NCBI GenBank assembly: GCA_030704425.1
Contig: JAPDHM010000001.1
Span: forward strand, 310,001-374,000
Direction: 5' to 3'
Source of the DNA: Rhodobacteraceae bacterium IMCC1909
Lineage (GTDB): Bacteria > Pseudomonadota > Alphaproteobacteria > Rhodobacterales > Rhodobacteraceae
DNA: 64,000 nucleotides
The translations under genes were made by a program, and so were the position numbers. This document shows, piece by piece, positions 46,152 through 61,856 of this stretch (position 1 is its first letter; each line of letters starts with the position of its first letter). The notes beneath the pieces are model-generated. The model did not search any database. It was not told the origin of the DNA and saw only the letters and a program-made list of their open reading frames with translations.

Positions 46152-46161
46152 CTTGGAAGTC

Positions 46162-46177
46162 AGCAAAAATCGTACCA
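46162..46177 (-). promoter_or_regulatory. Sigma-54 promoter upstream of the M15 peptidase gene
   Basis: Minus strand TGGTACG-ATTT-TTGCT, with GG and GC at the exact -24/-12 spacing. The predicted start site falls at or within a base or two of ATG 46151, implying a nearly leaderless transcript. Confidence 0.7.
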
Positions 46178-46216
46178 ATTTTAAATAGACGAATTTACGT
46201 TGAGTGGAGCTTTTGA

Positions 46217-47908
46217 TTATCGTTTTTCTAAATCGATGGTCTGCCCCTGAAGGTCGAGGTACATTTTAAGTAAATCACCTTCGTTAATTGTACCTATTAA
46301 TGTTCCAGTGCTTCTATCAACTATTGGTATTGTTTCACCTATAAAGTTTGCAGCAGTCTCAATCGCTTGTTGTAACGAGGCATCTGATTTTATATTTAAT
46401 GCCTCTGTATCAGTATATTTTATGATGGCATCACTTGGCTTTACAAATATCAATGCCTTCAGGTGAAGTTTTCCAATATATTTTCCTTCATGCGTGTTAA
46501 CATAAGCTTCGTTTACTTGCATTTTTACCATTTCGGCTTTTGCTACGTCTACAGTTACTTCAGGCTTGAATTTTAAAACATTCGACGATGTGATCTTTGT
46601 AATATTTTCTTCCATTAGTCTTATACCCATACGGCCCTGTGAAAGATCAATACCACGACTTAAAAGTTGCTTGTCGAAAATGGAATGTTCAAATAATTGA
46701 CCGCTGATCATAGTTGCTGTAACGATCCCAATTGTTGATGCTAATGCCAGACTATACGAGCCTGTGAGCTCTAGTACGATCATGATCATGGATATCGGAG
46801 CGCCAATAACGGATCCAGCAACAGCTGCCATCCCGCATATTATAAGTTCGGGTCCCTGAAATGATTGTATACCCATCCAACTTAAGACTGATGTCGCAAT
46901 GGACCCTGCTGCGGCGCCTACCAATAAAGCGGGCGAAAAAACACCGCCAAAAAAGCCAAATCCCAAGGATAGTGCCGTAGCAATAATTTTTCCGAATAGG
47001 ATTGCGACTGCCATTATTAATAAAGTACTTCCGGCAGTAAGGTTTATTATTGCAGTAGTACCTAGTCCCATAACCTCAGGATAAAACGTTCCAATTATGC
47101 TTAACCCTGTAATGGCTATTAAAAATGATTGGAATTGATTCAAGCCCATTTGCGTTGGAAGTTTTGCAAATGTTAAAATTGTGAACATGAAAAGTATTGC
47201 AACAAAGCCAAAGAATGGACCGGCTGCAATTGAAATTAATATCATTGGGCCAACGTCTGTCGCTGAATAAGGTCCCATTATGAATGTTGATGAATTCCAT
47301 AAATAATTGTGAATCACAATTGCGGTACCGGATGCTAATGCGATCGGCGCCAATGCCTTGAACGAAAAATGGCGTAATATAGCTTCATGAGCAAAAATTA
47401 TGCCGGTTAAGGGAGCACTGAAACCAGCGGATATTGCGGCAGCAACGCCTCCTCCGAGGACAATATCTGTATTAATACGTAATTTTAGGATTGCTTTAAG
47501 CCATGAGCCTAGTGTTGCCCCAAAATGTACCAAAGGCCCATATTGACCAACTGAAGCTCCACCTGCAGCTGAGAAAAATGCCGCTAAAGTGCTGGCAACA
47601 CCAGATTTTATATCAAGTTCATTGTCTACCCTGTGTGCAGCAAAGATAGTATCTGATGGCCCATGCCATCTGATTACACTGAATTTTGCCTTGATTAAGC
47701 TTATTATAAATGCAGCAATACTGAGACTACAGAATAATAAAATAAAACGATTTGCATTATCAAAACGAGTGTTAACAAATTGCTCAATGAAATGAATTCC
47801 GGCCCTGAAATAGTGAGCTGCAGTCGCTCCAAAAACACCTAAAAGGATTCCAATTAAAATCGAAATAAGCACGAGTTTCAAGGTATTCTGCCACATACGA
47901 TATTCCAA
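46217..47908 (-). CDS. ClC-family chloride channel/transporter with CBS domains
   Basis: 563 residues: about ten to twelve membrane helices in the ClC fold, then two CBS domains (from about residue 440; IPIVDRSTGTLIGTINEGDL in the second). The filter segment GREGP, whose glutamate gates and couples protons in ClC antiporters, reads GQYGPLVHFGA at 121-131, with tyrosine in place of glutamate. GFFGGVFSPALLVG matches the second filter loop. The start is TTG 47908 with AGAAGAG ahead; ATG 47896 is the alternative. It lies 40 bases after an unknown secreted protein gene in a three-gene minus-strand operon. Confidence 0.88.
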   Translation of the reverse strand: MEYRMWQNTLKLVLISILIGILLGVFGATAAHYFRAGIHFIEQFVNTRFDNANRFILLFCSLSIAAFIISLIKAKFSVIRWHGPSDTIFAAHRVDNELDIKSGVASTLAAFFSAAGGASVGQYGPLVHFGATLGSWLKAILKLRINTDIVLGGGVAAAISAGFSAPLTGIIFAHEAILRHFSFKALAPIALASGTAIVIHNYLWNSSTFIMGPYSATDVGPMILISIAAGPFFGFVAILFMFTILTFAKLPTQMGLNQFQSFLIAITGLSIIGTFYPEVMGLGTTAIINLTAGSTLLIMAVAILFGKIIATALSLGFGFFGGVFSPALLVGAAAGSIATSVLSWMGIQSFQGPELIICGMAAVAGSVIGAPISMIMIVLELTGSYSLALASTIGIVTATMISGQLFEHSIFDKQLLSRGIDLSQGRMGIRLMEENITKITSSNVLKFKPEVTVDVAKAEMVKMQVNEAYVNTHEGKYIGKLHLKALIFVKPSDAIIKYTDTEALNIKSDASLQQAIETAANFIGETIPIVDRSTGTLIGTINEGDLLKMYLDLQGQTIDLEKR

Positions 47909-47948
47909 CTAATCTCTTCTGAGTTGCGGATTGTATTAAATACTTGAT

Positions 47949-48461
47949 TTAATCTACATACTTCACTTCTAACAGTTCCAGAATTAACTGACCGTATGAC
48001 TCGTTTTGTACAGTAGACAGTAGCTCATCATACAGGGCAGTTTGTACTGGGACATCACTTCTAATCAAGTATGAAAGCTTTGTGTGAGATTCGCCGTTTG
48101 GTATTATTTTTTGTTGGATTATGAAGTCATGGTTCAAATCTGACGTTCTTAAAAATTTTAAACGTATTTTGGCAAAGATGATAGTTTTGCCTGTAAGATT
48201 AATTATTGATGGCATGATCCGAAAAGCATTTACGGACCTTGAGATTTTTCTTCTTTCAAGTCTTGGGAGTGCTAAAATTATGTCTGGATTAGGTTCTGAT
48301 ATGTTGGTGCATAAATAAGTTTTTAGCTCGCCTTGTGTACAATTAAATGAAATTTGTTCGTGATTTTGTAGGGTAGAGCTAGCGTCGGCGGGAACAGTAA
48401 AAAAACAAAGAAAAATTGTGGTTAAAATACTTGAATATCGTATATTTCTGAAAAAAATCAT
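47949..48461 (-). CDS. Unknown secreted protein in the ClC operon
   Basis: 170 residues; not recognised. Signal peptide (SSILTTIFLCFFTVPADAS), then two cysteines (ISFNCTQGE and TYLCTNIS) and a beta-rich sequence with basic patches. It begins three bases after the preceding gene and ends 40 bases before the ClC gene, so the three are likely co-transcribed. Confidence 0.65.
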   Translation of the reverse strand: MIFFRNIRYSSILTTIFLCFFTVPADASSTLQNHEQISFNCTQGELKTYLCTNISEPNPDIILALPRLERRKISRSVNAFRIMPSIINLTGKTIIFAKIRLKFLRTSDLNHDFIIQQKIIPNGESHTKLSYLIRSDVPVQTALYDELLSTVQNESYGQLILELLEVKYVD

Positions 48462-48464
48462 ATC

Positions 48465-49172
48465 CTATACTTCAATACTACCATTCTTCTTTATTTTTTT
48501 ATTGACTGTTGACCAAATATCCTTGGTTTCAACACTGTCAAATTCAAATTTTCGGCCGCTGAGTTTCTTTTCATTCTCTAGCCTAAAGTAAGTCAGCATT
48601 GCAGCCATTTGTTGTTCGACTTTTTCTATGTTGGTGATTGCAAACTTGACATCTTTTGCCTCTAAATATTCGTTTTTTAGAGCAGCTTGTAACCTTTGAA
48701 TTGTATCGGCTTTCACCTGGGAGAGTGACGATCTTGCCGTGTTAGCGAGCACCTTGACTTTTTGCACTGCTATTTCGATGTCCTGATCGCTGGGCTTGGG
48801 CGTGTGACATTCTATGACGTTATTAGCAATCGACTTAACTCGAATTTTATGATCTCTCAGCACCTCTTTAACGTGCGGAATATATTCATCTGCGCTGTAA
48901 CGGACGCTTATTGTGGTATCGGTAGTACGCTCCTTCATGACCTCAACGTAAGTACCTAGTTTGCGAGGTCTGAATTTAATCCAGACAGTAACAGTTTTAA
49001 AGATTTGAGAGAAATCATTTAACGAAATGGAGTTTTCTGCATTGTTAACGAATAAGCTCACCACATCGTACATACGCTCTTTTGAACTGTTGATATAGGT
49101 GTTTTCGTCTTCTTTGACCCTCAAGACATCGATACTTACCTTGGCTTCTTCATTTTGATTTGTTTCAGACAT
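48465..49172 (-). CDS. Unknown cytoplasmic protein, possible ribosome-recycling-factor-like fold
   Basis: 235 residues, no signal or membrane segment. Residues about 80-200 have the order of features seen in ribosome recycling factor: DTTISVRYSADEYIPHVKEV as a strand-helix, VIECHTPKPSDQDIEIAVQK as strand then helix, and a long helix with ANTARSSLSQVKADTIQRLQ. In true RRF the corresponding helix reads arginine-rich (VRNIRRDA); only some of this remains. Weak resemblance by eye only. First gene of the operon leading to the ClC protein. Confidence 0.45.
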   Translation of the reverse strand: MSETNQNEEAKVSIDVLRVKEDENTYINSSKERMYDVVSLFVNNAENSISLNDFSQIFKTVTVWIKFRPRKLGTYVEVMKERTTDTTISVRYSADEYIPHVKEVLRDHKIRVKSIANNVIECHTPKPSDQDIEIAVQKVKVLANTARSSLSQVKADTIQRLQAALKNEYLEAKDVKFAITNIEKVEQQMAAMLTYFRLENEKKLSGRKFEFDSVETKDIWSTVNKKIKKNGSIEV

Positions 49173-49258
49173 TTTGAACTCCTGGTATCGCTTAAACGTC
49201 GTAATCAGTAACTACTCTAAAAGAGTATATTTTTGACTAATCATTTGGAAGTGAAAAA

Positions 49259-49858
49259 TTATGTTTTGAAATTTTTACTAACGAGTGCATAACACGATTT
49301 TTTTAGAGAAAAGATATTCTTAATTTTAGCGAATATGCTAGCCTCTCCGTTTTCATTGGCGCTATCATTGTTTGAATTCATTCGAAAGTTCTTGATCGCC
49401 TGGAATGTTTGATTTCCCCAGAGTCCGTCGATTTTTCCTGTATAGGAGCCGTAACGTAAGCATTTTTGGACGTTTTTTCTTTCAATGTTGGATAAAGTCG
49501 CAAATTTATTCTTAATTTGATCATAAACGGAGCCTAGGTCTTCTGTAGTATCAGATTGAACTGGATAATCTAAATCTTTATTATTTTTTTGATTTAAATT
49601 ATTTTTTTTATAATTAAGCGTGTTAACTTCGTTTTGATTTGGTCCATTCTGTAAAATGCCTCCAGAATAGTAGAGTAGCATTGCATCCACATTGGTGTCG
49701 TTATTTTGGTAGACTATTTTTTGGTCTATTCCGTTGTTTTTGCATAGGTTGAAACTTTTTGCGGCTTTCGTGCAGGAAGAATTAGCTTCTGACAACGCTG
49801 GAACGAGTGCAAAGAATATTGCGGCGCAAAAACGGGTATAACTGTCAAAGAACATCAC
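49259..49858 (-). CDS. Secreted peptidoglycan-binding-domain protein
   Basis: 199 residues. Signal peptide (FCAAIFFALVPALSEANS), a low-complexity Asn/Lys middle, and a PG_binding_1-like domain: LRYGSYTGKIDGLWGNQTFQ followed by IKNF, the usual G-x-x-x-G-x-x-D-G-x-x-G-x-x-T pattern. Its signal ends in PALSEA like that of the M15 peptidase. A sigma-54 promoter lies 36 bases upstream. Likely binds murein at the flagellum or cell pole (inference). Confidence 0.78.
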   Translation of the reverse strand: MMFFDSYTRFCAAIFFALVPALSEANSSCTKAAKSFNLCKNNGIDQKIVYQNNDTNVDAMLLYYSGGILQNGPNQNEVNTLNYKKNNLNQKNNKDLDYPVQSDTTEDLGSVYDQIKNKFATLSNIERKNVQKCLRYGSYTGKIDGLWGNQTFQAIKNFRMNSNNDSANENGEASIFAKIKNIFSLKKSCYALVSKNFKT

Positions 49859-49893
49859 AATAGCTTCCTCAAAACGACCTTCTAACTAATGAC

Positions 49894-49909
49894 CGCAAAT
49901 TACGTGCCA
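49894..49909 (-). promoter_or_regulatory. Sigma-54 promoter upstream of the peptidoglycan-binding gene
   Basis: Minus strand TGGCACG-TAAT-TTGCG; every conserved base of both boxes matches. Predicted transcript start about 49883, 25 bases before the gene. Confidence 0.85.
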
Positions 49910-49982
49910 AATTTATTTAATTTTCTACATAAATGTTTTGAAAAATTGCTATTGTGTCGTAGAATGAAGCTGGCATTAGTTG

Positions 49983-50270
49983 ATGTCCAGAATATCGCGT
50001 GGGATGACTTACACAATGGATGTGATTGCAACAATAAAAATTTTAAATGGTGATTTTGACGATTGGCTAGAATTTTTCAGAAGTTATGAATTATTGCGTC
50101 ATGAATTTGTCGAAAACGAAATTATAACTCAAATATCGTCATCAATGGCTGAAGTGTCTTTCACGATAATTGATATTGATGGTTTGACCGAACTATCCGG
50201 CTCTCAACTACTGCGGGATGGTGAAGAGCGTTTAGGTATCAGCGTCGAAATTAAAGAAAAAACTGAATGA
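49983..50270 (+). CDS. Unknown small protein, possible ABM/DUF3764-like
   Basis: 95 residues from ATG 49983; ATG at codon 8 is equally possible as neither has a strong ribosome site. The sequence has a ferredoxin-like beta-alpha-beta pattern (DVIATIKILNGDFDDWLEFF, VSFTIIDIDGLTEL), vaguely like small DUF3764/ABM proteins. No known function. It precedes the FliL-like gene on the same strand. Confidence 0.5.
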   Translation: MSRISRGMTYTMDVIATIKILNGDFDDWLEFFRSYELLRHEFVENEIITQISSSMAEVSFTIIDIDGLTELSGSQLLRDGEERLGISVEIKEKTE

Positions 50271-50296
50271 AGAACTAATATAACTAAAAAACAATG

Positions 50297-50312
50297 TGGC
50301 ATGTTTTTTGCT
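50297..50312 (+). promoter_or_regulatory. Sigma-54 promoter upstream of the FliL-like gene
   Basis: TGGCATG-TTTT-TTGCT, perfect GG/GC spacing, ends 23 bases before the start codon; GGAGGGG lies between. Confidence 0.85.
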
Positions 50313-50334
50313 CGATTAGGGTTGGAGGGGTGCT

Positions 50335-50868
50335 ATGTTCTATTTACAAATATTTTTACCGGCTGGACTGGTCGTATTTTTGTTTAGTTTTGGTCATATT
50401 TTAGTTGAGAATGATTACTCTGGGGTTTATTTTATAGAGCAGTCCGAAGAGCTCATAGAAGAAGAGAATAGTGAAGCACCAAACACTACAGAAGTGAACT
50501 CTGAAAATGCGCCGGGTGATGGTAATCCGGTATTAGCCGATAAATATAATTACTTAAAAATAGAAAACGTCTTTACGGGGCGTTTATTAGATACCAAAGA
50601 ACTGTTTAGTTTTGAATTGGCAATTGCTACATATCAGACCAATGTGACCGCTGATTTTTTTATAAAAGCAATTTATGAGATAGAATCTAAATTAGTTTCT
50701 GAAGTTTCCACTATTGCCGTAGATGTTAATCACAATGATTTGGCGACGACTGAGGGGCGGAAGGTACTGACCGACAAAATACTGAAGGAGTTGAATGAAT
50801 TTTTAGTTGAAGAGGGTTTTAATCCAGATATCCACTACGCTTACATAATAAATTATAATATAATTTAA
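50335..50868 (+). CDS. FliL-like membrane protein
   Basis: 177 residues: an N-terminal membrane helix (FLPAGLVVFLFSFGHILV), an acidic linker (SEELIEEENSEAP) and a C-terminal domain. It ends like FliL: DLATTEGRKVLTDKILKELN followed by EFLVEEG and a final hydrophobic strand, matching the D-L-x-T-x-E-G-K-x-x-L pattern. FliL surrounds the flagellar stator and modulates torque. This protein lies apart from fliM/fliN-type genes, so it may be a paralogue with its own role. Driven by a sigma-54 promoter. Confidence 0.6.
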   Translation: MFYLQIFLPAGLVVFLFSFGHILVENDYSGVYFIEQSEELIEEENSEAPNTTEVNSENAPGDGNPVLADKYNYLKIENVFTGRLLDTKELFSFELAIATYQTNVTADFFIKAIYEIESKLVSEVSTIAVDVNHNDLATTEGRKVLTDKILKELNEFLVEEGFNPDIHYAYIINYNII

Positions 50869-50872
50869 TTTG

Positions 50873-50888
50873 TGGCACGGAATATGCT
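50873..50888 (+). promoter_or_regulatory. Sigma-54 promoter upstream of a 55-residue gene
   Basis: TGGCACG-GAAT-ATGCT: full -24 box and GC of the -12 box, one T changed to A. Predicted start site about 50899, at the ribosome-binding site, so the leader would be very short. Confidence 0.7.
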
Positions 50889-50909
50889 CGTATTTGTAAG
50901 GGAGGAATT

Positions 50910-51077
50910 ATGATGCAGTTTAACGAAAAAAACACCGCTACACCTATGGAGATGAAATTTGTTATTTCGTGCAGCTATTTTAATAGCTCAGACGAGTTTA
51001 CGCACAAGTCTGATTTAGTAATTAAATTAGATGAGGCAAGACCTGTAAAACAGGCTTTAGTTACTACTGCGGCGTAG
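50910..51077 (+). CDS. Small cytoplasmic protein, 55 residues
   Basis: Too short for routine calling. ATG 50910 follows AAGGGAGGAATT, a very strong ribosome site, and a sigma-54 promoter. The product begins MMQFNEKNTATPMEMKFV and ends ARPVKQALVTTAA. Not recognised. Promoter plus ribosome site make this a credible gene, perhaps a small flagellar regulator or chaperone (inference). Confidence 0.6.
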   Translation: MMQFNEKNTATPMEMKFVISCSYFNSSDEFTHKSDLVIKLDEARPVKQALVTTAA

Positions 51078-51091
51078 GTTTAATCGTGGTG

Positions 51092-51286
51092 TTATTTGTT
51101 TTTTTTCAGAAATTTGACGAAAAATGCAAGTAAAAAAAACCCGAGGGGTAGTTTCAGTATTTCGAACACAGTTAGCGTATCACGGTAGTATATTAAATTT
51201 ATAATAGCATTAATTAAAATCGCGAATGCAAGAAGCCAAACAAAAGTTAGCCGGGATCTCTCGCAAAAAGCACATTTTCGCCTCAT
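51092..51286 (-). CDS. Small membrane protein, 64 residues
   Basis: Not recognised. MRRKCAFCERSR is a basic N-terminus with a CXXC, followed by two hydrophobic helices (LTFVWLLAFAILINAIINLI and LPLGFFLLAFFVKFL) and a lysine-rich end. GGTTAGAG lies upstream at fair spacing. Convergent with the 55-residue gene. Confidence 0.5.
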   Translation of the reverse strand: MRRKCAFCERSRLTFVWLLAFAILINAIINLIYYRDTLTVFEILKLPLGFFLLAFFVKFLKKNK

Positions 51287-51346
51287 AACTCTAACCTTTT
51301 TCGTAAAAACTTGAAGTACCGAATTAAAAGTGTCTATAATTCAGCC

Positions 51347-51682
51347 ATGCTGAATTTAGATTTATACTTGCCAAATACCTCTGCCACTAAGTTGTTGGAC
51401 AAACCAACCGTCTCGGGGATTTTGAATACAAACTCATTCGGCTCGGCAGGGCAGACTATAACACCTGTGCATCGCACAGATAAATCTAAAAGTAATACCG
51501 ATTATACTTCTAGAATATTCAGTCCTTACCTTACTCCTTCTGCTATTATTGCCGAAAACAGGCAGTTAGCCCAGGGTAGTGTTTCGCCTTTCTACCAACA
51601 AAACATAGCAGCAACGAAATATTTTAACATATCCACAACGCCCAAACTGAGACCCCATCTACATACCAGTTTGATTGCCTAA
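51347..51682 (+). CDS. Unknown Ser/Thr/Asn-rich protein
   Basis: 111 residues from ATG 51347 (MLNLDLYLPNTSATKLLDKP); a TTG at 51311 would add 12. Not recognised. Low hydrophobicity and many S, T, N and Q residues, resembling exported or disordered flagellar-type proteins, but no family assigned. No clear ribosome site. Its end overlaps the convergent gene by 24 bases. May be spurious. Confidence 0.4.
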   Translation: MLNLDLYLPNTSATKLLDKPTVSGILNTNSFGSAGQTITPVHRTDKSKSNTDYTSRIFSPYLTPSAIIAENRQLAQGSVSPFYQQNIAATKYFNISTTPKLRPHLHTSLIA

Positions 51683-52165: not shown

Positions 52166-52181
52166 TAAATTTCCTACTAAG

Positions 52182-52562
52182 CTATTTGTCTCTCGAGAGT
52201 TCCCACGCTAGCAAGATTTCTTTTATAAAGAAATGGCATTTTTTTATTTCATGATTATCATTGCTTCCATTTATGCCATTTTCAATAACCTTAATCCGGC
52301 AAAATTCGTATAAGCGAAATAAACTAATTGCCAAATCGCCCTGTGATTTAAAATCTAAGCTTTTTTGTAGAAAGTATAAAGTAAGTAACGACGCCTGGAA
52401 TGCTTTTTCACGTTCCAGTGAATTCGTCGATGTTTGCAATAAGTCCAAACTTTTCTCAAGTTTATTTAAAGCGGTACTTACAACGTTGAATCCAGTATCT
52501 TCATCTGACCGTGTTTGGTTTTGTATTTCGGTGTAACTGCTAATAGCTGCGTTTGCGTTCAT
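52182..52562 (-). CDS. FliS-like flagellar export chaperone
   Basis: 126 residues from ATG 52562 (MNANAAISSYTEIQNQT) with GGAG nine bases ahead. An all-helical protein whose helix 3 and end resemble FliS, the flagellin chaperone: YFLQKSLDFKSQGDLAISLF, then RLYEFCR, and a final EILLAWELS. FliS binds the C-terminus of flagellin to prevent early polymerisation. Similarity is by pattern only. A weak GG-N10-GA site lies upstream but lacks the GC of a sigma-54 -12 box. Confidence 0.55.
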   Translation of the reverse strand: MNANAAISSYTEIQNQTRSDEDTGFNVVSTALNKLEKSLDLLQTSTNSLEREKAFQASLLTLYFLQKSLDFKSQGDLAISLFRLYEFCRIKVIENGINGSNDNHEIKKCHFFIKEILLAWELSRDK

Positions 52563-52705
52563 TATTATCTCCATCTTGGTCTACTTAACGTCGAATTTTT
52601 GGAATATGTTAGCTGGTTGTCAAAAATATGACCACCAATCAATTTTAGTGACATACAAGGATTGGTGTGTTTGTAAATTATTGTTTTTTATATATTTAAT
52701 TTCTT

Positions 52706-52721
52706 TGGCACGAGACGTGCA
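52706..52721 (+). promoter_or_regulatory. Sigma-54 promoter upstream of the gene cut by the IS3 element
   Basis: TGGCACG-AGAC-GTGCA: full -24 box and GC at -12, one T changed to G. 18 bases ahead of ATG 52740 with GGAGG between. Confidence 0.75.
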
Positions 52722-52739
52722 ATAGTGTGGCGGAGGTTG

Positions 52740-53024
52740 ATGATGACTAATTATTTAATAGATGCTGGGGATGATGACTTTAGTCAAATCATCTGTTGTG
52801 CTCTAAATAAAAGAGGCGTGGAGTGGTCTAGTTTGGGTGACGAGGTCTGTACCCAGACGCTCTCCAAAGAGAGGCATTTAATTATTTCAGATACATCCAA
52901 AGACTGCGATGTAAATTCTGATAAATTTGAGACATTTCTTCGGTTACATAAAATCACAAAAGTGGTTGTGCTTGTGGCGAATTCTGAAACTTTTGATATC
53001 AAAGTTAAGCGTAATGGTGTCTAG
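52740..53024 (+). CDS. Unknown protein, 3' end replaced by the IS3 element
   Basis: 94 codons from ATG 52740 (MMTNYLIDAGDDDFSQIICC). The stop TAG 53022-53024 is the first three bases of the IS3 terminal repeat, so the original protein may have been longer. The visible part alternates strands and helices (KVVVLVANSETFD near the end) in a way that could be a receiver-like N-terminal domain, as in FleQ-type activators, but the phosphoacceptor pattern is not convincing. Sigma-54 promoter and GGAGG upstream. Confidence 0.5.
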   Translation: MMTNYLIDAGDDDFSQIICCALNKRGVEWSSLGDEVCTQTLSKERHLIISDTSKDCDVNSDKFETFLRLHKITKVVVLVANSETFDIKVKRNGV

Positions 53025-53028
53025 CCCC

Positions 53029-53882
53029 CTAAATTCGTCCATTGATTTTTGGTTTCTCTAATAAGGTTTCTGGTACGGGTGGGCGCATGTTCAATGCATG
53101 ATGAGGTCTGATCTGGTTGTATTGCCTGAGCCAAACATTGATAGCGACCTGGGCTTGCCGTGTGGTGTGAAACCATTCGGCGTTGAGCACTTCTTTTCGC
53201 AAGGTGCCGTTAAAGCGTTCGTTGTATCCATTTTCCCAAGGGCTGCCCGGATAGATTTGCATTGGTTTGATCCCAACCTTCTTCAGCCAGTCCTGCAGAT
53301 GCGTGGCAATGAACTCGGGTCCGTTGTCAGAGCGAATAAACTCTGGCTTACCATGTTTGATCAGCAGCGGGTGCAGTGTCTCCAAAAACGTCGTTCGCAT
53401 TCATTTTGGGTCTCACTGCCACGCAGAGCGCTTCACGGGTATATTCATCTAGAACCGTGAGCATTTTATAGCTGCGCCCATTGCTAAGCTTATCGTGCAC
53501 AAAGTCGATCGCCCAAATATGGTTGGGGTGTGTGGGCCGCAGCCTGATGATGGAGCTGTCTTTATGATAAAGCCGTTTGCGCTTGTTGTGCCGGCGCGGC
53601 AGCTGCAAACCTTCTTCGTTCCATAAGCGCTCGATCCTCTTGTGGTTAACACGCCAGCCTTCCATGCGCAGCAGAGCTGTGACTTTCCTATAGCCATACC
53701 ACCCATATTGCTTGGCCAGCCGGATCATCGCCAAGCGAAGTTCGTTGTCATCTGTGGGTTGGGCTTGATAGCGCAGAGTTGAGCGGGCTACATCCAGAAC
53801 AGCGCAAGCACGCCGCTCAGAAATATCCAGCTTTTGACGCGTATGAATAACAGCCTGACGAAGCTGAGCCCGCGTCAGGCCC
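53029..53882 (-). pseudogene. IS3-family OrfB (DDE transposase) with a frameshift
   Basis: The integrase-type catalytic core is read in two frames. Upstream part: GWYGYRKVTALLRMEGWRVN, THPNHIWAIDFVHDKLSNG and LDEYTREALCV. Downstream part: SDNGPEFIATHLQDWLKKVG, SPWENGYNERFNGTLRKEVL. The break is a run of five T residues (minus strand GACGTTTTTGGAG, near 53392); four T residues would restore DVLETLHPLL. D, D and E of the active site survive in separate pieces, so the enzyme is probably dead unless the run slips. Confidence 0.85.
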
Positions 53883-54162
53883 GCGGCTTTAGATGATCAA
53901 GGCTCTCCTTCAGGATCACCTTGTCTAACTGCAAGTCAGCGACGATCTTCTTCAAGCGCTCGTTTTCTTTCTTGAGCGATTTCATCTCAGAAACCTGCGA
54001 ACGAGAAAGGCCTCCAAACTTCTTACGCCAGTAATAATAACTCTTATCTGAAATCCCAGCTTTGCGACACGAACTCACAACGTCCAAACCATCGTGCAAA
54101 TGAACATCAATCTCGCGCAATAACTTCAACACATCTTCATCAGAATAACGCTTTCGAGCCAT
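53875..54162 (-). CDS. IS3-family OrfA (helix-turn-helix)
   Basis: 95 residues: MARKRYSDEDVLKLLREIDV then GISDKSYYYWRKKFGG (HTH) and a leucine-zipper-like coil (MKSLKKENERLKKIVADLQL). It overlaps the start of orfB, where a programmed -1 shift normally makes the full transposase. Confidence 0.9.
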   Translation of the reverse strand: MARKRYSDEDVLKLLREIDVHLHDGLDVVSSCRKAGISDKSYYYWRKKFGGLSRSQVSEMKSLKKENERLKKIVADLQLDKVILKESLDHLKPRA

Positions 54163-54213
54163 GTTTCCTTACTCCCTTTGCCAAAATATACTGGCACAGT
54201 TCTAGGGGGCTAA

Positions 54214-56115
54214 GACAATTTCTCTTCTTTTCCAAATTTATTACTATTAGCAACAGTCTTGAGGCTAGGTTTAAACGTAGCCTCAACAAGGATAGTTTTG
54301 TCAGAGGGTCATAATGGGGCTGATGCGGCCGGTAAAGTTATCCAGGCTTTTGGAGAGTTCATTGTGGCGGGCAATTATGCTGTTGGCCTGTTTGTATTTG
54401 CTATTCTGGTTATCATTAACCTAGTGGTGATCACAAAAGGTGCTGGGAGGGTGTCCGAAGTTTCAGCAAGGTTCACGCTTGATGCAATGCCAGGAAAACA
54501 AATGGCGATTGATGCTGATCTAAATGCTGGAGTCCTGACTCCAGAAGAAGCGACAGATCGTAGGGCTGATGTATCGAAAGAGGCAGATTTTTACGGCTCA
54601 ATGGACGGCGCCTCAAAGTTTGTAAAAGGCGATGCAATTGCCGGTATACTGATCTTAGCAATTAATGTGATTGGTGGCCTGATAATTGGAATTGCTCAAC
54701 ACGACTTGAACGTTACCCAAGCAGCGGAATTTTATGTTCTGCTTTCAATAGGAGACGGACTGGTAGCACAAATCCCGTCATTGTTACTTTCGATAGCGAC
54801 AGCCATTATAGTCACGCGTGTGTCTTCGTCAGAAAACATGTCGGAACACATAAAACGTCAGGTGAACCTTTCGGCGGCTTGGCTACCGACTTCTTTGGTA
54901 ATGCTTGCATTAGGTTTGGTACCAGGTATGCCTAATATCCTTTTTATTGGCTTCGCTGCAATCACTGGAATTCTTGCGTGGAATTCTCGAAGAAATGAAG
55001 TTTCTGCATTATCCGGTGAAGTGATTGCCGAAGGCGGCGAGGATTTAACGGAAGAGGTCGAATTTGGATTAGTAGATGTAAAAGATGCATCAAAGATTTC
55101 TGTCAACATTGGTTATGGGCTGGTACCGCTAGTGGATGAAGGAAAAGCAGATAATTTGGTCCCTAAAGTTACTCGCTTGAGGAAGGAAATTTCTAAGGCA
55201 CTGGGGTTCATCGTTCCGGGGGTGCGAATTCGTGATGATCTAAATTTAGAGGCGTCTCAGTATCAGATAAAGATTGGCCAAAAAATTGTGGCGGATGACC
55301 TTATTTATGCGGATAAAAAATTAGCAATAGCCAGCGACAGTACTAACCTCGAGTTATCTGGTTTAAAAGTTAAGGAGCCAGCTTTTGGTGTTGATGCTTA
55401 TTGGATTGATAAAGAACTTCAGGCCGATGCCGAAGCCAAAGGCTATGTGATTGTTGAGCCTGATGATGTTTTAACAACGCACCTGAGCCAGATTGTTAAT
55501 AGTTATGCATCAGATTTGTTGGGCCAAGAAGAAGTCCAAGAATTATTGGATAATCTGAAGGTATCATATCCTAATTTAGTGGATACAGTAGTTCCAAAAG
55601 TGATGCCCCTTAATCAGGTAACTTCAGTCATGAAGTGCATACTTGAGGAAGGCGTACCAATATCTGATCTGAGATTAATTCTTGAAAGCTTAAGCTCAAT
55701 GAATATCCAGAAGATGGATAGTGATGACATAGCTGAGCGCATCCGCCCTAAGTTGGTGCCGCTGCTAATTCAAAAACTTTTGAAATTCAAGGATACTATT
55801 CCGTTAATCACGTTTTCTCCTGAACTTGAACAAATGATTTTGACCACTGTACGGCAAAATCCTGACGAAAAAATGCTTCTTATCGAGGGAACACTTGCTA
55901 AAAAAATACTTTCGAACCTTAATGAGGCATCGGAACAGTTCAATAGCGAAGGCAAGCCTGTATTTCTTATTGTTGCGCCGCAAATTCGTAAGCATGTGGC
56001 GAGGTTTGTGAGATCCCAGTTGCCGTCAATAAATGTTTTGAGCTTCCTAGAATTGCCTGAGGACCGGAGTGTAGAAATAGCGTTCACAGTTGGAGGTTTA
56101 GATGCAATTGAGTAA
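54214..56115 (+). pseudogene. flhA: FlhA, flagellar export gate protein, 5' end removed by the IS3 element
   Basis: FlhA forms the nonameric ring of the flagellar type III export apparatus. The frame is in phase from the IS border: DNFSSFP, LLLLATVLRLGLNVASTR and SEGHNGADAAGKVI match FlhA from about residue 60 on; the first one or two membrane helices are missing. The FHIPEP-type loop is present (VSEVSARFTLDAMPGKQMAI), as are later helices and the cytoplasmic domain to the end (EIAFTVGGLDAIE). The first plausible start codon in frame is TTG 54259, which would give a 618-residue protein lacking the N-terminal helix. Probably non-functional. Confidence 0.88.
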
Positions 56116-56145
56116 AGGAAATGTTATTATGTTGGAGTGTTTCTT

Positions 56146-57414
56146 ATGCCAGAACTGAAAATTACTGCTGTTGATACGTCGCTAGCAATGGACGAAGTGG
56201 AAAAGAAGCTTGGGCCTGATGCACTTATTTTGTCCACTACACGTCGCGATGGGATGATAGAGATATTGGCTACAAATGAGCCAGAGCAAATAGACGCTGC
56301 GAACTTAAAAGCAAAAGAAAAGGCGATGGCGCGTCGGGAAAGTACGTTATTGTCTAAAGAGCAAATAGATGCTGCGAAATTAAAAGCAAAAGAAAAGGCG
56401 ACGGCGCGTCGGGAAAGTCCGTTATTATCTGAACTGCCTGCGAGTAACACTGCTGAAAAATTCTCTGAACTCGTTGATGCCGAAGTATCTAAATATGAGA
56501 ATAAATCAGATAACCAACAGCCAATTGTTTCTATTGATCCAAACCGGTCTGCACTAAGTGATAACAGGTCTGAAAAATCAGATCTTGCTATTGCGTTCGA
56601 ACAAAAGCTTAGTGAACTACAGTTTTTGGTGGATGGAACGATCGCTCTTGATCAGCAAAGCGGCACATCATTATCAATTAATGCAAGAATGAAAATGCTT
56701 GGCTTCAGTAATAGAACTACAACTAACCTGATAGACAAAAACGAGCCAAATCTTGAATTACATGACTTGATGCGTCAATTCACCAGGCAAATTGTCCAAG
56801 GGAAAAGTAAAGATTTTGATGCAAGCCAAATTATTTTGGTTTGTGGTTCTGAGCGATCTGGAAAAACTTTATTATCTAAAAAACTCTCTAAATTTCTGCC
56901 AACGCATACAGCTGCACAGAATAGTACGCTTATTTTACAAAATAATAGGGTCATTTCCGACCCTCTTTCAGGTGACTTGAATTCTTTGTTTAAATCTAAT
57001 TCCGATGCAAACGTAACTTCACTGTTTAGGAAAAGGCAAGATATTGTCTTAGACGGTAGTAGGTTAATAGTGGATTATGAGGGTCCGATGGATGTTTTGA
57101 ATTCAGTTATAATGAGGTTAGAATCTCTGGAACATAAGCCTAAGGTGAGCGTGATATATGCACTTGAAGTAGGAAAAAGTTATAATGCAGTACGACAAGC
57201 TTTAGAAATTCCGCAAATACCTAACCTGAGTGTAGCGCTCACAAAAATGGATTTGCTTGAAGTTTCAATTTCTGAACTGTCGGCGCTCTATGATTTAGGA
57301 AGAAAAATTCAATTTTTCTCTGGTTTGAAGATTTTGGAGGATGGCCTTGATTTTGCGAAAATTTCTGTTGTCGAGGATTTTTTGCTGAACATTGTCGAAC
57401 AGGAAGGTTTATAA
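56146..57414 (+). CDS. flhF: FlhF-like SRP-type GTPase with degenerate motifs
   Basis: 422 residues from ATG 56146 (GGAG eight bases ahead). FlhF places polar flagella. The N-terminal B-domain signature is ELKITAVDTSLAMDEVEKKL then GPDALILSTTRRDGMIEILA. Residues 47-96 are a tandem duplication. In the G domain, the P-loop GSERSGKT (234-241) and TKMD (366-369) remain, but the DTAG-type motif reads VDYEG, and the usual GPTGVGKTTT is altered. Position between flhA and flhG confirms identity. It may have lost or changed GTP hydrolysis. Confidence 0.82.
   Translation: MPELKITAVDTSLAMDEVEKKLGPDALILSTTRRDGMIEILATNEPEQIDAANLKAKEKAMARRESTLLSKEQIDAAKLKAKEKATARRESPLLSELPASNTAEKFSELVDAEVSKYENKSDNQQPIVSIDPNRSALSDNRSEKSDLAIAFEQKLSELQFLVDGTIALDQQSGTSLSINARMKMLGFSNRTTTNLIDKNEPNLELHDLMRQFTRQIVQGKSKDFDASQIILVCGSERSGKTLLSKKLSKFLPTHTAAQNSTLILQNNRVISDPLSGDLNSLFKSNSDANVTSLFRKRQDIVLDGSRLIVDYEGPMDVLNSVIMRLESLEHKPKVSVIYALEVGKSYNAVRQALEIPQIPNLSVALTKMDLLEVSISELSALYDLGRKIQFFSGLKILEDGLDFAKISVVEDFLLNIVEQEGL
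56284..56433 (+). repeat. 75-bp tandem duplication inside flhF
   Basis: Two adjacent 75-base copies (56284-56358 and 56359-56433) encode EQIDAANLKAKEKAMARRES and EQIDAAKLKAKEKATARRES plus five residues each. About nine in ten bases match, several differences being silent, so the duplication is not brand new. It keeps the frame and extends a basic helical linker. Confidence 0.9.
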
Positions 57415-57418
57415 CCCA

Positions 57419-58210
57419 ATGGTGAAGTCATTAGCCTTTGTCAGTGGTAAAGGAGGGGTGGGTAAGACCTGTCTTGCCGTAAATTCTGCTATAAATTTGG
57501 CTCTCATGGGATTGAAGGTGGCGGTTTTGGATACCGACTTTGGATTATCGAATGCCAATATTTTGATGGGTGTGAAGGCGGATAATACTATTTCTGACTT
57601 TTTATCGGGCAGTCACTCATTGGATGACATCATTTGTAATTCCCATAGTGGCGTGAAACTTATTCCAGGCGGTTCTGGTACACTTGAGACATTAAACCTT
57701 GATACAGAGCAGCGTTGGAAAATTATTAAATCTCTTGACACGCTGGAGAATGATCTTGATTTCTTGATTGTGGATACGCCTGCTGGCGCTTCAAATTCTA
57801 GTATTGAATTTGCTGCAGCTGTAGATCAGGTCGTGCTAACCGTGGTTGGTGAGCCCACGAGTTTTATGGATGCATATGCCTTTTTGAAAGCGTTACACAT
57901 AGAGAAAGGTGTGAGCCGTTTTTCAATAATTATTAATATGGCAAAAAATGAAACATCTGCATTCAGAGATTTTAAAAGTTTTGAGAAAATAGTACTAAAG
58001 TTTTTTCCGGTGCAATTAGCATTCGCAGGTTGGATGCCTGGATCAAACGACGTTGTGCAGTCGATTATTGCGCGCAAACCTTTCATACTTGATAAGAAGA
58101 CCAAAAAACAAGTTGGAACATGCTTAGATGTAATTACAAATAATCTTCATAAAATCCCAAAGCAAAAGAAGTCCGGCATTCACTTTTTCAGCTCAGAAAC
58201 TGGATATTAA
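57419..58210 (+). CDS. flhG: FlhG/FleN-type MinD-like ATPase
   Basis: Regulates flagellar number together with FlhF, and in several bacteria restrains the FleQ activator. 263 residues from ATG 57419. Deviant Walker A KGGVGKT is at 11-17, followed by DTDFGLSNANILMG and switch II-like VDTPAGASNSS. It is shorter than MinD and ends KSGIHFFSSETGY; no clear membrane-targeting helix. Five bases after flhF and two bases before fliA. Confidence 0.93.
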   Translation: MVKSLAFVSGKGGVGKTCLAVNSAINLALMGLKVAVLDTDFGLSNANILMGVKADNTISDFLSGSHSLDDIICNSHSGVKLIPGGSGTLETLNLDTEQRWKIIKSLDTLENDLDFLIVDTPAGASNSSIEFAAAVDQVVLTVVGEPTSFMDAYAFLKALHIEKGVSRFSIIINMAKNETSAFRDFKSFEKIVLKFFPVQLAFAGWMPGSNDVVQSIIARKPFILDKKTKKQVGTCLDVITNNLHKIPKQKKSGIHFFSSETGY

Positions 58211-58212
58211 AA

Positions 58213-58917
58213 ATGTTGAACCCGTATAATACTAAAGTGCCTGCCGACCGTCTGATTGAGAAAAATACAGGGTTAGTTAAAAAGTATGCGTATTTTTACG
58301 CTGGTCGGGTTCAAAGGGCCGCTGAAGTTGAGGACCTTTTGCAGGTGGGAATGATGGGTCTAATTGAGGCTGCCCACAATTATGAGAATAGAGAAGGCGT
58401 TGCTTTTGAAAGCTATGCTAGAATGCGTATTAAAGGCTCAATCGTGGATTATCTTCGTAAGATATCCAACCTTTGCCGGACGACGGTTAAGCAAAAGCAA
58501 AATACTGATAAGGCAAAACGAGTACTGGAACTAAAACTTGGCCGACTTCCTAATGCAGACGAAGTTGCTAAAGAATTAAAAATTACATCAGCAGAGTTGT
58601 CACGTTGGGAGCAAAATTTTGCGGCAAACCAGAACCAGAGTATTGATGAGGTTACAGAGGTATACGGTGACTTTATTCTTTCTGTGGAGCCAAATGTTGA
58701 AGATAAAATATTCAATGGCGAGCTTAAGAAATATTTACGACAAGCCATTGGCCAATTAAACAAACAACAAATTTTAGTTATCGAGCTTTACTACGTCAAA
58801 GAATTGAATGTTTATGAAATTGCAGAAATTCTTTCTGTCAGTACTGGTCGAGTGTCTCAGATTAAATCTGCAGCGATAGCTGCACTGCGTAAAAAAATCG
58901 AATTGGAACTAGTTTGA
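58213..58917 (+). CDS. fliA: Flagellar sigma factor FliA (sigma-28)
   Basis: Directs RNA polymerase to late flagellar genes. 234 residues. Region 2 is AEVEDLLQVGMMGLIEAAHN and AFESYARMRIKGSIVDYLRK; region 3 RLPNADEVAKELKITSAELS; region 4 VIELYYVKELNVYEIAEILS with SVSTGRVSQIKS. TTG is the start used here (an ATG lies 3 residues in). Its anti-sigma FlgM is not visible in the window. The stop overlaps the next gene. Confidence 0.92.
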   Translation: MLNPYNTKVPADRLIEKNTGLVKKYAYFYAGRVQRAAEVEDLLQVGMMGLIEAAHNYENREGVAFESYARMRIKGSIVDYLRKISNLCRTTVKQKQNTDKAKRVLELKLGRLPNADEVAKELKITSAELSRWEQNFAANQNQSIDEVTEVYGDFILSVEPNVEDKIFNGELKKYLRQAIGQLNKQQILVIELYYVKELNVYEIAEILSVSTGRVSQIKSAAIAALRKKIELELV

Positions 58918-59333
58918 TGGCGGTTCTTCCCCTGAGCGCAATTTTTGAAGAATTGCAATTAACTGTCACAAGCGCAGAGGTTGTTTTACCGAGTCTGAAA
59001 AATGATTCAGAAATAATGCTTTCATGTGAAATATCGTCATTACCGACACATAACTGTAGTATGGTTTTTAGGAAGTCAGATTTAAATGTGGCTGTGATTG
59101 GACAAATGAGTTTCCGCTCTATCCGACCTTTAGTTACGGCAGAAATGGTTTTGAATTTTACAAATTTTGAAAAATTAGAAAAATTATGCAGCGGCGGAGA
59201 ACCCATTCGGCCAATAACTTTATACTTAAAAGTTAAAAAAAGTAGACAAATCAAACATGGAGAAGTAGTAATTAAAAACGACGACTTTGACTTAGATATT
59301 GTTGATATGTCTTGGCGGCGTCCGTTATTTTAG
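58917..59333 (+). CDS. Unknown protein coupled to fliA
   Basis: 138 residues from ATG 58917, whose first base is the last base of the fliA stop (TGATG). Not recognised. Beta-rich soluble protein (VLPSLKNDSEIMLSCEIS, then SDLNVAVIGQMSFRSIRPLV). The coupling to fliA argues for a flagellar role. Its stop lies directly against the stop of the convergent gene at 59334. Confidence 0.6.
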   Translation: MAVLPLSAIFEELQLTVTSAEVVLPSLKNDSEIMLSCEISSLPTHNCSMVFRKSDLNVAVIGQMSFRSIRPLVTAEMVLNFTNFEKLEKLCSGGEPIRPITLYLKVKKSRQIKHGEVVIKNDDFDLDIVDMSWRRPLF

Positions 59334-59684
59334 TTACATTTTGAAGCTTTTTAACGAACATTTATAGATTGTTTTCTCTCCACTGCGCGTTTCGATCGCA
59401 ATTTTTTTATCCAAGTTTATTTTATATTTTGATACCTGGTTCTCAAAATGTAAGTTTTCTCCATCCAGGGTTTTTATTTTAAATGTTGTGACTTTTTCAT
59501 TGGATTTTTCAAAACTGACCAACATATCTAGCTTCAATTTTTTATAAGTAATTTGGAAACTACCCTCATCGTTCATGCAGCTTATCAAATTACTTTCGAA
59601 ACGCGTATTTTGCATCATAAAAAAAAATACACTCGCGAGCCCAGCTAGGGTCAGTAATATAAATGTTACGTCTTTGCGTATCAT
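59334..59684 (-). CDS. Unknown membrane-anchored protein
   Basis: 116 residues; not recognised. One N-terminal helix (VTFILLTLAGLASVFFFMM) and a periplasmic part with two cysteines (LISCMNDE and IYKCSLKS). The start overlaps the stop of the acidic-protein gene (ATGA), so the two form a sigma-54-driven operon. Confidence 0.6.
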   Translation of the reverse strand: MIRKDVTFILLTLAGLASVFFFMMQNTRFESNLISCMNDEGSFQITYKKLKLDMLVSFEKSNEKVTTFKIKTLDGENLHFENQVSKYKINLDKKIAIETRSGEKTIYKCSLKSFKM

Positions 59685-60154
59685 TCAATATACTCTGCTT
59701 TTTTATCTGATACTAATTTTGCGGCATCATCCTTGCTAACCGCAACGACCATGTCTTTTATCAACTTTACACCATTATGGGTCGTTGTTTTACTTACTTT
59801 TATTTGGACATCGCCATTGTCGTCTTCGTCTTCGTCTTCGTCTTCGTCGTCGTCAAACAGACCACTAAGTTGAGTTGAATCGTCGTCTTCGATGCCGGAA
59901 AAAATATTTGTATTTTCCAATTCATTCAGTGAATACACGAATGGTTCGTGCATCATGGCATAAACCTTGTTTCGGATAATCCAACTTTTAGCAGATAGTA
60001 AAGCCAGCCGCTTGGCCCGATCTTTTTCCGTTGCCAAAGAGCTCTTTATTTCATCGAGAGCTTGATCAAAGGAGTGGTCTCCAAATTCAATTAAGATTGC
60101 GTTCCGTGCCTTTAGCATTTCCGATGAGAGTGATTTATCGTTTTCTGCGGTCAT
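59681..60154 (-). CDS. Unknown acidic protein under a sigma-54 promoter
   Basis: 157 residues from ATG 60154 (GAGGAG ahead). Cytoplasmic, helical N-terminal half (MLKARNAILIEFGDHSFDQA), an acidic run of Asp/Glu (DDDEDEDEDEDD) at about 110-122, and a C-terminal VKLIKDMVVAVSKDDAAKLV. Not recognised. Divergent from flgB, with which it shares a bidirectional promoter region. Confidence 0.65.
   Translation of the reverse strand: MTAENDKSLSSEMLKARNAILIEFGDHSFDQALDEIKSSLATEKDRAKRLALLSAKSWIIRNKVYAMMHEPFVYSLNELENTNIFSGIEDDDSTQLSGLFDDDEDEDEDEDDNGDVQIKVSKTTTHNGVKLIKDMVVAVSKDDAAKLVSDKKAEYIE
59821..59854 (-). repeat. Hexanucleotide repeat encoding an Asp/Glu run
   Basis: Four CGTCTT units followed by CGTCGTCGTC on the plus strand; on the coding strand GAAGAC repeats give alternating Glu-Asp. 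Length changes would be in frame, altering the acidic stretch without killing the gene. Confidence 0.8.
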
Positions 60155-60175
60155 CCTAGATCTCCTCTGATTAGT

Positions 60176-60191
60176 TGGCACACTCCTTGCA
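60176..60191 (+). promoter_or_regulatory. Sigma-54 promoter for flgBCD
   Basis: TGGCACA-CTCC-TTGCA, both boxes nearly perfect; 41 bases ahead of the flgB start. The -12 box shares the TTGCAA sequence with the minus-strand promoter described next. Confidence 0.88.
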
Positions 60192-60203
60192 ACATTCACA
60201 CCA
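60188..60203 (-). promoter_or_regulatory. Sigma-54 promoter for the acidic protein gene, overlapping the flgB promoter
   Basis: Minus strand TGGTGTG-AATG-TTGCA. Its -12 box occupies 60188-60192, overlapping the plus-strand -12 box at 60187-60191, so polymerase can occupy only one at a time. Confidence 0.8.
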
Positions 60204-60232
60204 AACGTAACATTGCAAGTGATCATCGTAAA

Positions 60233-60619
60233 ATGAAGTCGATAGCAAATCATATACAGACCCATGCCGACGCTCTAAATCTGCGCGCTAAGAGAAATGA
60301 AATTTTGGCATCCAACATTGTCAACGCTGCGACACCCAATTTCAAGGCGAGAGATATTGACTTCAATAAGGCTCTGCAGGCGCGTATGGATATCGGCCCT
60401 GTGAATGTTTCAAATGAGCGTCATTTTAAATTTTTTACTGGAACTGGAGATGAGGCGGCCCAATTTCGACAATCAATAAACCCGTCTCTTGATGGTAATA
60501 CTGTAGAGCTCCATGTCGAACAGATGCAATTTTCCGAAAATGTAATGCGATACCAAACCTCTTTGGAATTTTTAAATAGAAAATTCAGTGGCTTAGTTTC
60601 GGCCATTAAAGGAGAATAG
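60233..60619 (+). CDS. flgB: Flagellar basal-body rod protein FlgB
   Basis: Proximal rod protein exported through the flagellar gate. 128 residues with the rod/hook N-terminal motif NEILASNIVNAATPNFKARD and a C-terminal helix (MQFSENVMRYQTSLEFLNRK). ATG 60233 is preceded by a poor ribosome site. One base before flgC. Confidence 0.93.
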   Translation: MKSIANHIQTHADALNLRAKRNEILASNIVNAATPNFKARDIDFNKALQARMDIGPVNVSNERHFKFFTGTGDEAAQFRQSINPSLDGNTVELHVEQMQFSENVMRYQTSLEFLNRKFSGLVSAIKGE

Positions 60620-60620
60620 C

Positions 60621-61037
60621 TTGTCGGATATTAAAAACATTTTCGATATCGCCGGTAGGGGTATGTCTGCACAGATGGTGCGTCTTAACACAGTCGCGAG
60701 TAATTTAGCTAACGCAAGAACTGTCGCGTCCTCTGATGCCGAAGCCTACAAAGCCATAAAGGCAGTGTTTAAATCAGTCTACGCAGATGATGTTCAAAAG
60801 ACTGGTGTGTCTTCAGTTGACGTTGATGAAATTATCACAGTCGATCTGCCCGCTGAACAGTCATATCAGCCTGGGCATCCTAAGGCCGATAAAGATGGGT
60901 TCATATATACTGCAGCAGTGAATGTAGATGAAGAATTAGTAGAGATGCTAGAGGCGTCTCGGCAATATGAAAACAACGTAGAAATGGTCACAACTTTACG
61001 TGGCTTGATGATGCGAACTATTAGCATGGGTAAGTGA
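60621..61037 (+). CDS. flgC: Flagellar basal-body rod protein FlgC
   Basis: Proximal rod protein, 138 residues from TTG 60621 with GGAGA ahead. FDIAGRGMSAQMVRLNTVAS with NLANA at the N-terminus; VNVDEELVEMLEASRQYENN and a final helix at the C-terminus, both typical. Confidence 0.93.
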   Translation: MSDIKNIFDIAGRGMSAQMVRLNTVASNLANARTVASSDAEAYKAIKAVFKSVYADDVQKTGVSSVDVDEIITVDLPAEQSYQPGHPKADKDGFIYTAAVNVDEELVEMLEASRQYENNVEMVTTLRGLMMRTISMGK

Positions 61038-61050
61038 GGTAAGAAACATT

Positions 61051-61743
61051 ATGTCGTCAATTGATCCGTCTGCAGCGCAGACTGCACTCTTCGAAAAATT
61101 AGGAATATCAAAAAACACTGACGTTAAACAAGGCAGCTCTGATTCATTAGGGCAGTCAGATTTTTTAAAGCTGATGACCACTCAGTTGCAAAATCAGGAC
61201 CCGTTTGCTCCAATGGATAACGGCGATTTTATTGCCCAAATGGCGCAATTTTCTACAGTGACAGGCATTGAAGAAGTTAATTCGTCATTGCAAAAAATTG
61301 TGGATAAGTTTGATCAGGGCCGTATTGCAACTGCTACAAACCTGTTAGGCCACTCAGTTTTGGTTCCAGGGAATGTATCCAGGCCCGACGAGAATGGTGA
61401 AGTGCATGGTGTATTAGATTTACCTCAGGCTACAAGCATGGCCAGGGTTGTGATAAGCGACGCTGATAGTGGTGAAGAACTCAATGTCATGGATTTAGGG
61501 CCACAGGCCGCTGGTTTAGTTGGTTTTTCGTGGAAAAATATTCCTGAAGAAATCCAAAATTCTGATCGCCGCATTCAAATTAACGCCACCGTAAACTTCG
61601 GTGAGGGTCCGCAGGAATTGAACCCATCTGTTTATGCACGAGTGTTGTCTGCTTCGATAGGGTCTGGGAATTCCGAAAGTGTTCTTATTGATGTTGAAGA
61701 CTTCGGTGAAATGGACGTCAGTAACGCCGTCAACTTTAGATAA
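61051..61743 (+). CDS. flgD: Flagellar hook assembly scaffold FlgD
   Basis: Hook cap that is lost when the hook is complete. 230 residues. The conserved N-terminal block is SDFLKLMTTQLQNQDPFAPM with DFIAQMAQFSTVTGIEEVN; a Tudor/FnIII-like region follows (GLVGFSWKNIPEE). It lies 13 bases after flgC and has a hairpin downstream. Confidence 0.93.
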   Translation: MSSIDPSAAQTALFEKLGISKNTDVKQGSSDSLGQSDFLKLMTTQLQNQDPFAPMDNGDFIAQMAQFSTVTGIEEVNSSLQKIVDKFDQGRIATATNLLGHSVLVPGNVSRPDENGEVHGVLDLPQATSMARVVISDADSGEELNVMDLGPQAAGLVGFSWKNIPEEIQNSDRRIQINATVNFGEGPQELNPSVYARVLSASIGSGNSESVLIDVEDFGEMDVSNAVNFR

Positions 61744-61755
61744 GCGAACAACCAC

Positions 61756-61770
61756 GGAGCAGCTTGCTCC
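61756..61770 (+). terminator. Weak hairpin after flgD
   Basis: GGAGCA-GCT-TGCTCC followed by AAAAATAAAA rather than T residues. It would be a poor intrinsic terminator; it separates flgBCD from the flgE promoter. Confidence 0.35.
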
Positions 61771-61793
61771 AAAAATAAAAAGTTGGTTAATTT

Positions 61794-61809
61794 TGGCATG
61801 TATCTTGCA
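61794..61809 (+). promoter_or_regulatory. Sigma-54 promoter for flgE
   Basis: TGGCATG-TATC-TTGCA, both boxes conserved, 47 bases ahead of the flgE start. Confidence 0.88.
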
Positions 61810-61856
61810 TGATCTACCAACAATAATTGAACTAAGTTTCTGCAAGGAGTGACTTG

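Follow-up and report, generated by a model that had tools for sequence, protein, structure and literature searches.

Probable orphaning of the sigma-54 promoters of a Fla1-like flagellar regulon by an insertion-sequence-associated deletion in Rhodobacteraceae bacterium IMCC1909

The window analyzed here, a 64,000-nt stretch of the genome of Rhodobacteraceae bacterium IMCC1909 (denoted G000; its relatives carry labels such as G001, and the genus sample includes 20 genomes), contains a flagellar gene cluster in which eight sites resemble sigma-54 promoters. It appears highly probable that these sites are the genuine promoters of an RpoN-dependent flagellar regulon resembling Fla1, which has been orphaned in this genome by a deletion associated with an insertion sequence (IS).

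Sigma-54 promoters in the flagellar cluster

A previous, sequence-only reading of the window listed eight sites as matching TGGCACG-N4-TTGC in both boxes and assigned them to a flagellar regulon. Scoring of this motif, with mismatches counted over both boxes, recovered all eight, with offsets of about 1 base at most, although the match is strict for one of them only; six others carry a single mismatch (Table 1), and the eighth, TGGTGTGAATGTTGC, which is divergent from flgB, has three mismatches but retains GG and GC. All eight sites combine a GG at -24 with a GC at -12 at fixed spacing and come close to TGGCAYR-N4-TTGC, and the seven stronger ones are located 11-48 nt upstream of the assigned start codons.

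With at most one mismatch, positions 46,001-61,900 contain seven sites, whereas 200 dinucleotide shuffles gave 0.28 on average and never more than 2, and positions 1-46,000 contain one, compared with 1.48 (60 shuffles). Across the genome, 160 such matches were found (45 for the reversed-pattern control), so single sites are not rare, yet the genome-wide density predicts merely 0.77 sites in the 15,648 bp of the cluster stretch (Poisson P 1.6e-5). The comparison with the genomic background that the earlier reading had suggested as a check shows an excess in the cluster. When up to two mismatches are allowed over the whole window, the promoter signal is weak (40 sites vs 27.4 +/- 4.9, reached in 1 of 100 shuffles). 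Exact matches number four in the genome, among the matches listed, and two of these are in the cluster (359895 and 376499).

The promoter cores are also conserved among relatives. The upstream DNA (about 110 bases) of eight orthologous genes (the seven with sites in the window and flgG, just outside it) was aligned for G000, G001, G017 and G018, with three genomes only for the small gene. Over the eight aligned promoters and up to four genomes, 78 of the 88 core columns are invariant vs 254 of the 644 columns in the remaining upstream DNA, for genes that were selected for carrying sites and with both figures inflated by kinship; the contrast between core and flank inside the same promoters is strong. 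The GG and GC columns are invariant throughout (32/32). The divergent site is identical in 4/4 genomes, and an exact site upstream of flgB is found also on the more distant contig AH-326-L19 (L048). Taken at face value, these features identify the eight sites as real sigma-54 (-24/-12) promoters.

The layout of the regulon is closely similar to that of Fla1 of Rhodobacter (Cereibacter) sphaeroides, with rpoN and two activators located in the flagellar cluster of relatives (Fla1-type layout in G001 and G011). In the portion of the Fla1 literature considered here (PMC7277832), sigma-54-2 drives the flagellar gene classes first with FleQ and later with both FleQ and FleT, and FleT is encoded in the operon of fliEFGHIJ. 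The likeness to Fla1, within the limits of that source, includes one large cluster with rpoN inside, two sigma-54 activators, one of them beside fliE, sigma-54 sites at rod and hook genes, and a FliA-type sigma factor (PMC7277832). Unlike Fla1 as outlined there, the clusters considered here hold extra genes (ClC, MepK-like and u48465), and the window genome lacks rpoN, the whole of one activator, the greater part of the second and about 30 kb. The names FleQ and FleT were not adopted for the activators; for the full protein, FlbD is the top NCBIfam match, far under the cut-off.

A missing block at an insertion sequence

The site at 52706 had been read as driving an unknown gene; the site is real, but the gene is a truncated sigma-54 activator. 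The protein encoded at 52725 resembles the first part of a 415-aa open reading frame (ORF) in G001 (78% identity), and the full activator gene adjoins fliE in relatives. In the full activator on contig C10 of G014, the AAA+ domain occupies residues 132-294, that is, beyond the end of the stump, so that the catalytic domain is absent from the window. The stump ends at an IS, right after which the flhA reading frame continues from codon 77 of the G001 ORF; this is the only flhA match in the window genome. The IS is present in six full-length copies, printed as 100% identical, and in pieces at contig ends. The full copies (53018-54217 and L129-L133) vary in length from 1,199 to 1,202 bp; in the window copy, the transposase frame is broken into three ORFs.

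The points in G001 that correspond to the stump and to flhA are separated by about 30.07 kb (245,822 to about 275,887), and the stretch between them holds, among others, the second activator, fliD, motB, motA, fliC, rpoN, flhB, fliR, fliQ and fliP, as well as fliN, fliM, fliL, fliK, fliJ, fliI, fliH, fliG, fliF and fliE (names read from sequence and gene order, with rpoN and the second activator confirmed by Pfam). A query of the window genome with G001 DNA across this block returned the two stumps only. The junction therefore shows what is expected of an IS-associated deletion, namely a multicopy IS, neighbors cut at both of its ends and an absent intervening block.

No rpoN was detected in the window genome with PF04552 or with the full-length model TIGR02395, which finds the gene in G001, G002 and G011. 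In relatives, activators of the flagellar cluster reach about 1e-66 to 1e-68, compared with 2.3e-54, on contig C2, for the best of 8 matches in the window genome; two activators are present in the clusters of G001, G011 and G018, and the window genome retains one stump, the other activator not being found. In the genus survey, rpoN and flhA are both present in 7 genomes and both absent in 12, and flhA without rpoN occurs only in the window genome.

The sequence-only reading envisaged a sigma-54 regulon that works here and drives a flagellum with new accessory parts. The conserved, well-formed sites upstream of flagellar and neighboring genes are what such a regulon would display, but with rpoN absent by two models, one activator truncated and the other missing, and some 30 kb of core flagellar genes gone, it cannot work in this genome as described, and we consider that version scarcely credible. 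Also wanting is a complete set of export gate, C-ring, stator and flagellin, given that flhA is truncated and that the genes of the G001 block have no DNA match. Under the deletion reading, recombination between IS copies, or a deletion adjacent to one, would have removed the block, as judged from one junction; by established sigma-54 biology, the promoters would then be neither bound nor opened without RpoN and the activators, transcription would have stopped, and the cell would lack a flagellum.

Surviving genes and alternatives to the deletion

All 29 of the 29 G018 reference ORFs with a match in the remaining cluster are free of internal stops and frame changes there, in a scan that ignores truncation and hence misses flhA and the stump. 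With no stops or frame breaks in the surviving genes, the loss looks recent; the undecayed state of these genes and of the promoters would fit such an age, and the deletion may even have arisen in culture. The unbroken ORFs, their low pooled dN/dS and the retention of the FliA-type sigma factor gene could alternatively indicate that the remaining genes have been kept for a use other than swimming and are transcribed from other promoters. We regard this as improbable, considering that the export gate is truncated and that a recent loss would look alike.

Somewhat more weight, though still with low probability, goes to an artefact of assembly or binning, whereby the 30-kb block, flanked by two identical copies of the IS, formed a separate contig that was lost, in which case the strain would be an ordinary flagellate whose sigma-54 regulon works. 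In keeping with this, both ends of C1 and the start of C2 fall inside this IS, and no breaks are seen in the flagellar genes that remain, which are under apparent purifying selection. The junction, however, falls within a contig of 1.77 Mb that reads across the IS, the genome is 99.97% complete, and searches with G001 DNA and an rpoN model yielded no part of the block on any of the contigs.

The IS-associated deletion remains the preferred reading, and several observations have to be set against it. The assembly consists of 9 contigs, and the termination of three contig ends in copies of the junction IS makes a mis-join or a lost contig possible; the assembly is the main uncertainty of this reading. 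In an assembly control, which looked at the collinearity of another IS copy (L132) with relatives, one flank matched dispersed repeats only. At the boundary used, none of the six full IS copies has a target-site repeat of at least 3 bp, and the L130 copy has a possible 4-bp repeat if the boundary is shifted by two bases; target-site duplications were accordingly dropped as uninformative proof of the deletion. The block was sought by DNA similarity to G001, with protein searches for rpoN, the activators and flhA, and G001 itself is not a clean reference (7 of 61 cluster ORFs and 3 of 37 housekeeping ORFs flagged as broken). Completeness of the other 19 genus genomes ranges from 67 to 100%, and several of the 12 that lack both rpoN and flhA are incomplete, so some of these absences may be gaps. 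Finally, pooled dN/dS is slightly higher in pairs with the window genome (0.125 and 0.133) than for G001-G002 (0.108), with four ORFs skipped for length mismatch and one with saturated dS in pairs with the window genome; these values suggest that purifying selection dominates, with slight relaxation at most.

Table 1. Predicted sigma-54 sites, putative deletion junction and other genes of the flagellar cluster in the window
Feature	Coordinates	Strand	Remarks
Sigma-54 site of MepK-like gene	46163..46177	-	one mismatch; found in G001, G002, G014, G017, G018
Sigma-54 site upstream of peptidoglycan-binding-like gene	49895..49909	-	exact match
Sigma-54 site upstream of FliL-like gene	50297..50311	+	one mismatch
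Sigma-54 site upstream of small gene (50910-51077)	50873..50887	+	one mismatch
Sigma-54 site upstream of truncated activator gene	52706..52720	+	one mismatch
Sigma-54 site upstream of flgB	60176..60190	+	one mismatch
Overlapping divergent sigma-54-like site upstream of gene 59681-60154	60189..60203	-	three mismatches
Sigma-54 site upstream of flgE	61794..61808	+	one mismatch
5' stump (~93 codons) of sigma-54 activator gene	52740..53017	+	99.7% DNA identity over 318 nt to start of full gene, G014 contig C10
1,200-bp insertion sequence at putative deletion junction	53018..54217	.	transposase ORFs on - strand; multicopy
flhA without first 76 codons	54218..56115	+	FHIPEP match begins at profile position 54; compared with G001 FlhA
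Peptidase_M15_2/MepK-like endopeptidase gene	45465..46151	-	PF05951 E 2.4e-34; NCBIfam MepK 132 bits, under cut-off 185
ClC-type chloride channel/exchanger gene	46217..47908	-	Pfam Voltage_CLC E 5.5e-57
u48465, uncharacterized 235-aa protein	48465..49172	-	no family above cut-off (Pfam, NCBIfam)
Gene with weak peptidoglycan-binding match	49259..49855	-	PG_binding_1 E 0.0018, below cut-off
FliL-like protein, 177 aa	50335..50868	+	PF03748 E 0.0017, below cut-off
FliS-family chaperone gene	52182..52562	-	Pfam E 5.7e-9, above cut-off; NCBIfam fliS below cut-off
FliA-type sigma factor gene	58213..58917	+	Pfam sigma-70 regions 2, 3, 4; the name FliA is our reading

Relation to known losses

In laboratory-evolved Campylobacter jejuni, insofar as covered by the part of the report considered (PMC7677240), rpoN was likewise lost along with flagellar function, by deletion of rpoN in evolving populations, whereas here a single IS-associated gap takes rpoN, the activators and adjoining structural genes. 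Large deletions tied to insertion sequences are described for gene islands, for example the rhizobial symbiosis islands (PMC8692435, again from a partial account); in the present case, a flagellar cluster in a Roseobacter-type genome is affected, and a single junction points to the mechanism. Among the literature matches listed, no title or abstract describes the deletion considered here, and the stems flagell and motil are absent from the main texts of PMC10675870 and PMC12661815.

If the deletion is real, a single step has apparently deprived a regulatory network of its reader: sigma factor, activators and a large part of the machine under their control adjoin each other and vanish together, and the promoters and the remaining genes are caught ahead of decay. 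The same arrangement offers a reason for the joint occurrence of rpoN and the flagellum in the genus. A further warning is that neither well-formed sigma-54 sites nor an almost complete flg set should be taken as proof of swimming.

Flagellar clusters of the relatives

In G001, the fliD, fliC and fliR ORFs are each split; given the flagged ORFs noted above, G001 may be decaying too, or its sequence may contain errors. In G002 (L037-L040, C4 130001-210000), 11 of 61 cluster ORFs are flagged vs 2 of 28 housekeeping ORFs; there are 10 stops in fliD and 6 in an activator gene, flhA is distributed over three frames and rpoN is in two pieces. These lesions, together with the few housekeeping flags, suggest an independent loss, and the G002 cluster is probably decaying on its own. 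For G017 and G018, broken genes were not taken to prove decay, since each also has 8 of 33 housekeeping ORFs flagged; some of the flags correspond to antisense or over-extended ORFs.

The cluster also shows possible signs of exchange. G011 and the window genome are 93.5% identical in the housekeeping stretch, but their flagellar clusters (L020-L024 in G011; 44000-64000 and L017 in the window genome) align over 3.8 kb only, at 66%, which may point to swapping or replacement of flagellar clusters among members of the genus. The G+C content is 40.6% at 44-76 kb vs 53.4% at 1-41 kb. For five genes at 49259-52574, dS between G001 and G002 is 0.18-0.46, compared with 0.44-1.62 between G000 and either of them, and for several flg genes, G000 and G002 are the closest pair, a mosaic that probably stems from recombination. 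Contig C10 of G014 (L042) is 97% identical in DNA to the G000 flagellar block, though the housekeeping DNA of G014 is 74% identical. A recent transfer between G000 and G014 was not concluded: the only flhA and rpoN matches of G014 are diverged (54% to G000 and 37% to G001), and G014 has a second copy of u48465 at 70%, so that C10 may be mis-binned and was used only as an unbroken comparison.

Candidate accessory genes

The earlier proposal that several uncharacterized genes belong to the flagellar regulon is supported by shared promoters and by synteny in related genomes. We hypothesize that these genes encode flagellar parts, the candidates being the FliL paralog, the MepK-like endopeptidase and u48465, which together make up a short list of conserved uncharacterized genes for the flagellate relatives. 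The FliL paralog and the MepK-like gene each have their own sigma-54 site; u48465 and the ClC-type gene are downstream of the 49895 site on the same strand and would form an operon transcribed from it. Orthologs of the FliL-like protein match PF03748 in 4/4 cases scanned (best 1.7e-6). The u48465 gene is found in 6/20 genus genomes, all of them flhA carriers, and is missing from the flhA carriers G011 and G015.

FlgJ of the cluster has the rod-binding domain only, and in Fla1 the wall is opened by a separate enzyme, SltF, according to the portion of PMC7277832 considered; the MepK-like enzyme could play such a wall-opening role. On a more tentative note, which we put forward as possible rather than probable, in relatives with rpoN the FliL paralog, the MepK-like enzyme, u48465 and the ClC exchanger might constitute an undescribed flagellar set in which the MepK-like enzyme replaces SltF as the enzyme that opens the wall for the rod, and swimming requires one or more of the members; the orphaned cluster of the window genome would then provide a natural knock-out background.

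In the window and in G001, G002, G014, G017 and G018, the ATG of the MepK-like gene is located exactly 11 nt past the GC box (46151-46177, minus strand; in G018, this is the second of two ATGs). At this distance, a sigma-54 transcript start would fall on the A of the ATG, and the gene possibly gives rise to a conserved leaderless sigma-54 message.

Elsewhere in the cluster, u51659 comes after fliS in the window, in G011 and in L049, and the gene divergent from flgB (59681-60154) recurs in L048 and L052. Both divergent cluster types have a ClC-type gene within or next to the flagellar cluster (46217-47908 in the window and 7620-9437 in L022), and the two genes are 43% identical.

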